Source: a bacterium (lineage in GTDB: Bacteria; Elusimicrobiota; Elusimicrobia; Elusimicrobiales; UBA9959). From it: a stretch of DNA of 64,000 nt. The first letter of the stretch is position 1. Each line of letters begins with the position of its first letter. Where the stretch lies: positions 62,001-126,000 of the forward strand of contig JAJYNO010000030.1 of NCBI GenBank assembly GCA_021786295.1. Direction: 5' to 3'. Below the pieces are notes generated by a model, which was not told where the DNA came from, searched no databases, and worked only from the letters and a program-made list of their open reading frames with translations. A program made the translations under genes and the position numbers. Positions 1-9,290 of this stretch are shown piece after piece.

Positions 1-771
1 GGCGGCCAGCACAGGAAGGAGGGATATCACCTCTGCGACAGCGAGCACTGCCAGGCCTACCACGGCAAGTACGGAGAGGCGAACACTACCACGCGCGCCG
101 TGATAGATACCGAGGGCGATATCCTGACCTACCACGGCCGCCCCGCTTACGCCTTCTACCACTCCAACTCGGGCGGATGGATACAGGCCTCCAAGGAAGT
201 CACCGGGTGGGGCGCCGTCCCCTACCTGGTCACCAAGCCGGACATCGCCCCCGGCACGACCGAGGCCCCGCTGGACCCGTGGCACTGGCACCTGTGGATA
301 ACCGGGGACCCGCCGGCCAACTGCAACTATCCCGGCTACGAACACGCCTCCAACTTCCGCTGGCTGAAGATCATCCGCGAGAAGGACATGACCTACCGCA
401 TCAACAGGGACTACAAGGTCGGAAAGGTGCTCAACCTGATCCCGCTGCGCCGAGCGCCGTCCGGCAACGTCAACTCGCTGCGCGTAGTGGGCAGTAAGCG
501 CACCATCGATATCGACAAGGAAAACCTAATACGCAACCTACTGGGCTTCAGCTCACTGAAGAGCACGCTGTTCGACCTTGAGGTGGACCGCTTCAAGGAC
601 GGCCGGATACGCAACTTCTGGATCTACGGCGGCGGCTGGGGCCACGGCGTAGGCCTTTGCCAGAGCGGCGCCGCCGGACTCGCCGGCAAGTACGGCCTGA
701 ACTACCGCCAGATACTCCGTTTCTATTTCCCCGGCACCCGCATCAGCCGCATCAAATACGTAAGGAAGTAG
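1..771 (+). CDS. SpoIID/LytB domain protein (5' truncated at window edge)
   Basis: Frame 1 is open from base 1 (GGQHRKEGYHLCDSEHCQAYHGKYGEANTTTRAV...), with C-terminal WGHGVGLCQSGAAGLA motif typical of SpoIID; ends at TAG 769-771. Confidence 0.88.
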   Translation, partial: GGQHRKEGYHLCDSEHCQAYHGKYGEANTTTRAVIDTEGDILTYHGRPAYAFYHSNSGGWIQASKEVTGWGAVPYLVTKPDIAPGTTEAPLDPWHWHLWITGDPPANCNYPGYEHASNFRWLKIIREKDMTYRINRDYKVGKVLNLIPLRRAPSGNVNSLRVVGSKRTIDIDKENLIRNLLGFSSLKSTLFDLEVDRFKDGRIRNFWIYGGGWGHGVGLCQSGAAGLAGKYGLNYRQILRFYFPGTRISRIKYVRK

Positions 772-798
772 GGACGCTGCTTCCTAACTTCCAAACTT
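765..798 (+). repeat. 34-bp inverted repeat, left copy (REP-like end of RAYT element)
   Basis: gaagtagggacgctgcttcctaacttccaaactt is the exact reverse complement of 1854-1887. Confidence 0.95.
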
Positions 799-1752
799 TT
801 TCAGCAGCGCCTTTCCTTTCGCCACCAGCTTGGATACGGCGCCGGAAGTCATTCCCAGTTCGCGCATCAGCTCGCTACCCCCAACGCCAGCGTCCCTGAC
901 GCTGAGATAGCAGTACGCAGCGCGCGCCTGCGCCGGGGCTTTTCCATGGCTATGGCTAAGGATCTCCATTCTGGACACCCCCGTAGACCTTTCCACCTCC
1001 GCCAGCACTTCCGCGCGGCTCTTAAATGCCGGAGCATCTTCCCCTGCGGCTTTCAGGACCGATTCCACGAAGTCACGTCCGCCAAGTATCCGCCGGTCCA
1101 AGGACTTTCGCCCGCCGTCCCCGGAGCCCTTTTGCCGTGAGGTTGAGCCATGCCCGGACGATGACACTGCGCCGCTGAGCTCCATGCTGCCGCTGTCCCC
1201 GGCCCTTTCAAGGACAGCCCGCAGGTAGGCATCCGCCGCCCCCTCCTCTTCCCCGCCGAAGCGGGAAAGGAGCTCATCCCTGTCCAGAATACCGTCACAC
1301 GCACCCGTGAGCGCCGCAGCGTGACCGCACCACCGGTAACCCTTGAGTTCTTCCGGGGTCGCCACCAACCCGCCGCGCAGTGGATTAAGATGTATGTAGG
1401 GGACAGCCTCTTGCAGATATCTTTCCTCACCGCAGATCACGGCCTTGTACCTGTTCTGGAACAGATGCCCGGCTCGCTTGTACTTCAGATTGAAGTGCAC
1501 AGCGTAGCCGGTCATGACGTGGCGCATGATTTCAGACAGCGGCCGCTCCCCGCGCAGCACCAACAGGTGGAAATGGTTCGGCATAAAACACCAGGCAAGG
1601 CATCTGGCGCCGGAATTTTTCAACCATACCGAGACCCTAGTCCGCAAATCTTCACAATCGGCCTCTTCCGAGAAGATGGCTCGACGCTCGATGCCGCGCG
1701 CCATTACGTGATATATCTGGCCGGGCATATCTATCCTGGCTTGTCTTGGCAT
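784..1752 (-). CDS. REP-associated tyrosine transposase (RAYT, Y1_Tnp / IS200-like TnpA family) with C-terminal HTH
   Basis: MPRQARIDMPGQIYHVMARGIERRAIF..., HUH motif in FMPNHFHLLVLRG, candidate catalytic Tyr in VPYIHLNPLRGGLV; HTH-like tail ELMRELGMTSGAVSKLV. Confidence 0.92.
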   Translation of the reverse strand: MPRQARIDMPGQIYHVMARGIERRAIFSEEADCEDLRTRVSVWLKNSGARCLAWCFMPNHFHLLVLRGERPLSEIMRHVMTGYAVHFNLKYKRAGHLFQNRYKAVICGEERYLQEAVPYIHLNPLRGGLVATPEELKGYRWCGHAAALTGACDGILDRDELLSRFGGEEEGAADAYLRAVLERAGDSGSMELSGAVSSSGHGSTSRQKGSGDGGRKSLDRRILGGRDFVESVLKAAGEDAPAFKSRAEVLAEVERSTGVSRMEILSHSHGKAPAQARAAYCYLSVRDAGVGGSELMRELGMTSGAVSKLVAKGKALLKKFGS

Positions 1753-1853
1753 ATACCCCCCTTTCCCGGGGATATCATAGCAGAGCACCCCGACAACTGC
1801 CTGTCGGGGTGCCGCGCTCTCTCAAGACCGGCCGTGGACAACGCCACAGCTTC

Positions 1854-1887
1854 AAGTTTGGAAGTTAGGAAGCAGCGTCCCTACTTC
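1854..1887 (-). repeat. 34-bp inverted repeat, right copy
   Basis: aagtttggaagttaggaagcagcgtccctacttc, perfect reverse complement of 765-798. Confidence 0.95.
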
Positions 1888-2879
1888 ATTTCCCAGGCGT
1901 CGGGGCCGGCGAGGAGGGTTTCGAGCTCGTGCTCCTTCGTGTCTCCGACGGCCTTCACGTGGTCGTAGTAGAGCTCCTCGTAGGAGGGCCTGCGCACGGC
2001 GCGCAGCACGCCCATCGGCACCGGGAATTCCGGCTGGGTCAGGCTGCTTACCAGGTAGGCCAGCCCGGGGTTGGTCTCGTCGTAAACAGCGACCTCAGGC
2101 GGCGCCTTGCCGGAGAAGGAGACGATCTCCGGCTTCATGTCCTTTATCACGATGCCCCTGTTCCTGTCCTTGCCGAACACCAGCGGCTTGCCGTGCTCCA
2201 CGCGCAGCAGCATATCATCGCGCAGGGCCTGGTCCTTCAGCGGCTCGAACTCCTTGTCCGAGAACGGCACGCACTTCTGCAGGATCTCAACGAAGGCCGT
2301 GCCTTCGTGCCTCGCCGCCCTCTCCAGTATAGCGGTGGTGCCGGCTATGTCGTTGTCCAGTCCGCGCGCGACGAACGTGCAGCCCAGGCCGACGGCGAAA
2401 CTGGCCGGGTTGAAGGGGTAGTCTATCGAGCCCAGCGGCGTGGTCTTGGTCTTGGTCCCCGGCTGGGTGGTCGGGGAGGCCTGGCCCTTCGTCAGCGCGT
2501 AGATGCGGTTGTTGAACAGCACGATCTTCAGCCCTATGTTGCGGCGTATCGCGTGCAGCATGTGGTTGCCGCCTATCGAGAGGCCGTCGCCGTCGCCGGT
2601 CACCACCCAGACCGCGAGCTCCGGATTGGCCAGCTTGACGCCGGTGGCCACGGCGGCCGCGCGGCCGTGGATCGAATGGAAGCCGTACGTGCTGACGTAG
2701 TACGGGAAGCGGCTGGAGCAGCCGATGCCGGAGATCACCGCGTACTTCTCGTGGGGCAGGCCCATGCCGGCCATCACCTTCTGCATCATGTTAAGGATGG
2801 CGAAATTGCCGCAGCCCGGGCACCACTTGACCGGGAGATTGGAGGAGAAATCCTTGGCCGTAAGCTTAGCGTTTTCCAT
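1881..2879 (-). CDS. korB: 2-oxoacid:ferredoxin oxidoreductase subunit beta (2-oxoglutarate type)
   Basis: NLPVKWCPGCGNFAILNMMQKV..., TPP-binding GDGDGLSIGGNH. Confidence 0.92.
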   Translation of the reverse strand: MENAKLTAKDFSSNLPVKWCPGCGNFAILNMMQKVMAGMGLPHEKYAVISGIGCSSRFPYYVSTYGFHSIHGRAAAVATGVKLANPELAVWVVTGDGDGLSIGGNHMLHAIRRNIGLKIVLFNNRIYALTKGQASPTTQPGTKTKTTPLGSIDYPFNPASFAVGLGCTFVARGLDNDIAGTTAILERAARHEGTAFVEILQKCVPFSDKEFEPLKDQALRDDMLLRVEHGKPLVFGKDRNRGIVIKDMKPEIVSFSGKAPPEVAVYDETNPGLAYLVSSLTQPEFPVPMGVLRAVRRPSYEELYYDHVKAVGDTKEHELETLLAGPDAWEMK

Positions 2880-7949: not shown

Positions 7950-9275
7950 ATGCCTAAACTGTTCATCGTCTCGCTGGGCTGCCCGAAGAACCTTTCCGAT
8001 TCCGAGGTAATGGCCGGGGAGCTGGCCGCGGCCGGTTGGGAGCTGGTCCCCTCCGAGGAGGGCGCCGACGCCGCGCTGCTCAACACCTGCGCCTTTCTGG
8101 GCTCCGCGGTCGGGGAATCGGAGGGCGAGATACGCCGCCTGCTGCGCCTGAAGGCCCGCGGCAGGCTCTCCAAGGTCCTGGTGGCGGGCTGCCTGGTGGA
8201 GCGGGAGAAGGAGGCCCTGCTCGAGAAATTCCCCGGCATAGACGCGCTGGTGGGGGTCAACGCGCTTTCCATGGCCGCCGAGGCGATAGAGGCCGGCAGG
8301 AGCTGTATCCCGGCCTCCGCTACCCGCATAGACTCCCCGCGCGTGAAAGCCCGGCTGACCGCCCCCCACAGCGCCTACCTGAAGATAGCCGACGGCTGCG
8401 GGAACCGCTGCGCCTATTGCCTGATCCCGTCCCTGCGAGGCCCTTTCCGCTCCAAGCCGTTCGAGTCGGTCCTGCAAGAGGCCGCCCGGCTGGCCGAGAG
8501 CGGCGCCGTGGAGATCTCGCTGATAGCGCAGGACACCACCTCCTACGGCCAGGACCTCTACGGGAGGCCGCGCCTCGCAGGGCTGCTGAAAGAACTGGTA
8601 AAGATACAAGGCGTACGCTGGTGGCGGCTGATGTACGTCTACCCCGAGCGGGTGAGCAAAGAACTGATCGGGGTGATGAAGGCCAACAGGAGCGTCGTCC
8701 GCTACCTGGACATGCCGCTGCAGCATATATCCGACCCTGTTCTCAGGCGCATGAACCGCTCCTCCACCTCCGCCTCCATAAAAGCGAAGATCGAGGAGCT
8801 GCGCCGGGCCATGCCGGACATCGCGCTGCGCACCAATTTCATAGTGGGCTTCCCCGGCGAGACCGCGGAGGATTTCGAGGAGCTGGCGGCCTTCGTCAAG
8901 GAGGCGCGCTTCTCCGGGGTGGGCGTATTCAAGTACTCGCGAGAGAAAGGCACGCCCGCCGCGGACATGCCGGACCAGGTCCCCGAGAGGATCAAGACCG
9001 AACGGGCCGAGGCTCTGGTGCGCGTTCAGAGCGAGGTGGTGGACGGCATCAACGCCGCCCTGAAAGGGAAGACCGTGGAAGTGCTTATGGATTCCCCGAA
9101 GTTCGGCCGCACCTACCGCGATGCGCCCGACATCGACGGCCACGTCGAGGTGGAGGTCCCGGAAGGTTCACGTCCCCCGAAGGCCGGCGACATAGTGAAG
9201 GCCAGGATCACCGGCGCCGCCGGCTACCTGCGCGCAGGGACGCTGCTTCCTAACTTCCCAACTCGTCAAAGTTAG
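7950..9275 (+). CDS. rimO: ribosomal protein S12 methylthiotransferase RimO
   Basis: MPKLFIVSLGCPKNLSDSEVMAGEL; radical SAM CGNRCAYCLIPSLRG; TRAM-like C-terminus. Confidence 0.93.
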   Translation: MPKLFIVSLGCPKNLSDSEVMAGELAAAGWELVPSEEGADAALLNTCAFLGSAVGESEGEIRRLLRLKARGRLSKVLVAGCLVEREKEALLEKFPGIDALVGVNALSMAAEAIEAGRSCIPASATRIDSPRVKARLTAPHSAYLKIADGCGNRCAYCLIPSLRGPFRSKPFESVLQEAARLAESGAVEISLIAQDTTSYGQDLYGRPRLAGLLKELVKIQGVRWWRLMYVYPERVSKELIGVMKANRSVVRYLDMPLQHISDPVLRRMNRSSTSASIKAKIEELRRAMPDIALRTNFIVGFPGETAEDFEELAAFVKEARFSGVGVFKYSREKGTPAADMPDQVPERIKTERAEALVRVQSEVVDGINAALKGKTVEVLMDSPKFGRTYRDAPDIDGHVEVEVPEGSRPPKAGDIVKARITGAAGYLRAGTLLPNFPTRQS

Positions 9276-9290
9276 GAAGCGGAGCCCCTA
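9236..9290. repeat. Solo REPIN-like palindrome related to the RAYT inverted repeats
   Basis: agggacgctgcttcctaacttcc identical to 770-792; forms perfect 12-bp stem 9245-9256/9269-9280. Confidence 0.88.

Follow-up and report, generated by a model that had tools for sequence, protein, structure and literature searches.

How did a conserved enzyme come to have its last codons and its stop within a transposon-derived palindrome? The question is raised by the junction between rimO and a convergent gene for a zincin-like metallopeptidase (PF06262; 9288..9644, minus strand) in the window, the 64,000-nucleotide stretch of DNA from an uncultured Elusimicrobiota bacterium analysed here. The rimO gene (7950..9275, plus strand) encodes a protein of 441 amino acids that scores 437.9 bits against TIGR01125 (cut-off 356.95) and contains the radical SAM CxxxCxxC motif as CGNRCAYC. 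The reading frame crosses the palindrome to a TAG at 9273-9275 and gives the C-terminus ...GYLRAGTLLPNFPTRQS, as the original prediction had read it. The last 12 residues, GTLLPNFPTRQS (residues 430-441), are encoded by the element, with GTLLPNF coming from its left arm and PTRQ from its spacer.

The element, AGGGACGCTGCTTCCTAACTTcccaactcgtcAAAGTTAGGAAGCGGAGCCCCTA, occupies positions 9236-9290 between the two converging genes and is assigned to neither strand. Its left arm (9236..9258, plus strand), AGGGACGCTGCTTCCTAACTTCC, encodes RimO G430-F436, is an exact match to 23 nt of the left terminal repeat of a RAYT gene in the same window, and occurs twice on the plus strand. The inverted right arm (9269..9290, minus strand) gives both the RimO stop (TAG 9273-9275, plus strand) and the zincin stop (TAG 9288-9290, minus strand). 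Within the arms, GCTTCCTAACTT (9245-9256) pairs base for base with AAGTTAGGAAGC (9269-9280). Both the predicted perfect 12-bp stem and the 23 nt of RAYT identity are confirmed; the loop or spacer between the paired stretches covers 9257..9268 (plus strand). The window holds 4 copies of the arm 12-mer at up to one mismatch, where 0.13 would be expected, and none of 100 shuffles reaches 4. Folded as RNA, a 66-nt stretch yields -27.2 kcal/mol (z -4.2) and beats 200 of 200 shuffles. Both the match count and the folding energy exceed chance. Rfam returned no match at the element. Downstream, in the window's genome and in its nearest relative G009 alike (L018 and L169), a second palindromic repeat, GGGGACAGGCTACTTTTT...AAAAAGTAGCCTGTCCCC, adjoins the element and fits the published GGGGWSAS motif.

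The same repeat flanks the RAYT gene (784..1788, minus strand), an IS200-type Y1/HUH transposase matching PF01797 at 4.3e-12. The protein scores 71.8 bits against the REP_Tyr_transpos model NF047646, below the cut-off of 80, and the HUH motif is visible as HFH. Related transposases give weak, sub-threshold C-terminal matches to the Bac_DnaA_C and HTH models. The gene is flanked by 37-nt inverted repeats that are 97% complementary. The one on its 3' side (762..798, plus strand) ends the open frame 100-771 with a TAG stop, and the one on its 5' side (1854..1890, minus strand) does so for the open frame 1881-2879(-), which we tentatively call korB from its TPP-enzyme domain and position. These repeats begin (T)AGGGACGC, the counterpart in the congener G014 being AGGGGACGC, and come near the GGGGWSAS motif without matching it exactly.

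A search with the 20-mer core of the repeat, allowing up to three mismatches, found 26 matches in the window's genome against one for the reversed control, and several of the 26 are paired, in pairs 52-111 nt long. G009 has 21 arm matches. With a 24-mer pattern, matches were found in 15 of the 33 genomes searched, every one of the same genus, and G014 alone has 40, mostly as near-identical pairs. The copies are dispersed at unrelated loci, mostly extragenic and in inverted pairs. Most G014 copies read AG, then GGGACGC...GCGTCCC, then CT, with variable outside bases and flanks that are not duplicated. The original prediction was right that the element is a non-autonomous pair of inverted repeats akin to the ends of the RAYT. 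The label "REPIN-like" needs refining: by inspection a single arm is not self-complementary and so forms no hairpin, no constant GTAG stands ahead of it, and the bases outside A(G) vary, so the family is better described as TIR type than as classical REP. By analogy with known systems, the RAYT presumably moves these copies in trans. The orthologous RAYT in G009 (L182/L201, G009:C50:63517-64474) sits at the same korB junction; it is covered by two overlapping matches (query 8-244 and 245-334), and the gene appears frameshifted. Other inverted pairs, such as GGGACGCTGATGACTATATGACTATT, lie upstream of rimO in other congeners (L045 and L064); several repeat families of the same build therefore coexist in the genus.

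The RimO tail itself is peculiar to one genome. In about 27 congener RimOs read from DNA, the protein ends in GYLR, GYVR or GYMR, a few differing residues and a stop, the sole exception being L051, whose frame is disrupted shortly before its end. The tail GTLLPNFPTRQS is absent from all of those examined and is known only from the window's genome, a metagenome-assembled genome (MAG; 79% complete, 2.3 Mb, 37 contigs, with the window in contig 3). The expected lineage-specific tail after GYLR was found, and a search among orthologs without the palindrome did not find it there. The new end, GYLR-A-G-T-L-L, is close to common ends in the genus (GYLRRGxLL, e.g. GYLRRGELL and GYMRRGKLL). An AlphaFold model of RimO (mean pLDDT 90) places the last strand at 427-432, including the element-encoded G430-L432, while residues 437-441 fall below 50. 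In this model the element-encoded residues probably complete the last strand of the TRAM domain. That its first residues resemble the native C-terminus of the genus and probably finish this strand would explain why the rewritten tail was tolerated, and RimO with the new tail would then be a working enzyme.

An order of events is suggested by the nearest relative, G009, which is 86% identical and carries a longer copy of the element at the same rimO-zincin junction. Its RimO is intact and ends GYLRKAKLS, with a TAG stop formed by TA and the first G of the GGGACG of the element. The far end of the G009 copy is the TAG stop of the zincin gene, and in both species the copy abuts that stop. The junction reads GCGCAAGGCAAAACTCAGTTAG followed directly by GGACGCTGC... 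in G009 and GCGCGCAGGGACGCTGC in the window; aligned, they show a gap of 14 nt immediately before the element and further gaps inside it. Both copies have the 9-nt spacer word CTCGTCAAA (9262-9270 in the window), a match that shuffling the G009 spacer 20,000 times reproduced in 43 cases. On the basis of its arms, its folding and the longer orthologous copy, we class the window's copy as a miniature inverted-pair element (REPIN/TIR type) that is internally shortened. "Solo", the word used for it in the original prediction, holds in that it has no transposase gene, and fails in that the element is two-armed and was shortened inside relative to G009. The expected absence of the element from relatives holds for four, in which the rimO and zincin stops overlap with no element between them, and not for G009. 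In other congeners the gap between the two genes holds a G+C-rich, terminator-like hairpin (L041, L055, L059, L064 and L085) or the stops overlap.

We propose that a TIR-type element with the ends AGGGACG...CGTCCCT inserted between the 3' ends of rimO and the zincin gene in the common ancestor with G009. The longer copy at the same place beside an intact RimO indicates that the insertion was ancestral and spared both convergent genes. It would have cost neither gene because the outermost bases of the element would have formed a TAG stop for each. Later, in the lineage of the window, a net loss of 14 nt immediately upstream would have taken away the native end of RimO, represented in the sister species by K-A-K-L-S-stop. 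The resulting frameshift would have led translation into the element, where it yields GTLLPNF from the left arm and PTRQ from the spacer before it reaches the TAG in the right arm. An ancestral insertion that spared both genes, followed by a net 14-nt deletion that rewrote the RimO tail, is the best explanation of these observations, with a probability of about 0.78. The single ancestral insertion, the sequence of the two events and the tolerance of the new tail are the steps that we infer. The original prediction that the insertion rewrote the C-terminus is right in that the tail is element-encoded; the insertion itself was probably not the cause, as the G009 copy lies beside an intact RimO.

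The same end product would arise if an element had inserted independently into the last rimO codons in the window's lineage and rewritten the tail in one step. Elements are indeed found repeatedly at gene ends, and the korB gap is occupied by the RAYT in two genomes and by a two-armed copy in G014; the spacer word is moreover short and the arms are conserved throughout the family, so that independent insertions at a favoured spot, for which the korB gap is a precedent, could happen. We nevertheless regard this reading as unlikely, because the spacer word and the right-hand junction are the same as in the G009 copy, and because displaced native codons would be expected downstream of the element, whose right end instead abuts the zincin stop directly. 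Still less probable is that the 14-nt loss is an assembly or sequencing artefact and that RimO in fact ends normally. The genome is a MAG with 37 contigs, and long hairpins favour local misassembly; against this, the frame stays open to a plausible end, the arms and flanks read cleanly, and the gap lies outside the hairpin. A palindrome that is mainly a host hairpin (an mRNA 3' end or a bidirectional terminator) would suit the strong fold, the site between convergent genes and the terminator-like hairpins of several relatives there, but is very improbable, since an intrinsic terminator search found none at the element, no T-run is present, and the sequence belongs to a repeat family dispersed at unrelated loci.

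The ancestral insertion followed by deletion would be one instance of a wider pattern in which element ends serve as the stop codons of neighbouring genes. With open frames of at least 120 codons standing in for genes, the boundary TAG is the stop of an open frame at 12 of 26 arm ends in the window's genome and at 10 of 21 in G009, and no other offset within 60 nt of the arm ends has more than three stops. With shared sites counted once, 15 of 33 ends supply a stop in these two genomes, against 4 of 44 in G014, G016 and G020 (cut-off of 110 codons in part of this set), where the copies are more uniform and presumably younger; the difference (Fisher P 0.0004) is a lead, as the test treats sites as independent and the comparison was made after seeing the data. 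Stop capture is found at 9 of 14 ends common to both species and at 6 of 19 unshared ends (P 0.085). Where korB meets the open frame 100-771, the window's genome and G009 have the RAYT. In G014 the place is taken by an 80-bp element with two arms and a TAG stop at each end (L212), and the congener G001 has two facing TAG stops a few nucleotides apart and no element (L206).

Two readings suit these counts, insertion near stops and selective retention of the copies that supply a stop. A TA target-site duplication, an idea prompted by the overlapping rimO and zincin stops in relatives, was dropped: in G014 the A(G) is constant at most ends and the flanks beyond it vary and are not duplicated, and at the korB junction of G001 the two TAG stops are separate. 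Targeting of insertions to stop codons would suit two loci (L155 vs L172, L028 vs L170), where the orthologous stop in the other species already contains TA and has no element beside it; with one comparable flank at each, they fit selective retention as well. The comparison of the window's genome with G009 yielded no two-sided empty site. Tentatively, and at odds well below even, one may imagine a retention ratchet, in which stop-capturing copies could not be lost without altering a protein, so that old populations would become enriched in them and their decay would rewrite protein tails.

The system is closest to the TIRtron/TIRYT elements, described together with TIR repeat families of which many have the GGGGWSAS motif (PMC3733652), and to subclass 2.1, with a related architecture and an HTH/DnaA-like C-terminal domain (PMC6006769). 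It shares with them a Y1 transposase, long inverted repeats of the GGGAC/GGGGAC kind and dispersed related pairs; the DnaA-like/HTH C-terminal matches of the related transposases here are weak and below threshold. Its repeat starts (A)GGGACGC, not exactly GGGGWSAS, and the likeness rests on architecture. As in REPINs mobilised by RAYTs (PMC3116915), a RAYT-associated repeat forms inverted pairs, and their movement is presumably in trans; a single arm here is no palindrome and the copy number is low, with the 26 arm matches in the genome. GTAG-tagged REPs likewise provide TAG stops and decorate ORFs (PMC3733652), so that element termini act as stops and ORF ends are element-encoded; in the RimO case, unlike those, a sister species gives the change its polarity, and a deletion after the insertion is its proposed cause. 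Rickettsia palindromic elements in ORFs, also described in PMC3733652, are similarly translated within conserved proteins, but their sequence is unrelated and the RimO case is a C-terminal replacement.

RAYT/TIRYT elements, REPs as stop codons and REP-encoded peptides have thus already been published. What is new is a well-resolved case in the Elusimicrobiota, a phylum that a term search did not find in the main texts of PMC3733652 and PMC6006769. The conversion of a transposon-derived repeat into the last residues and stop of a conserved enzyme, the ribosome-modifying RimO, is followed here at the level of single bases and with a polarity. The example is small and clear, and the kind of event is known. 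The coincidence of element ends with gene stops is a countable pattern that could help explain the persistence of such repeats.
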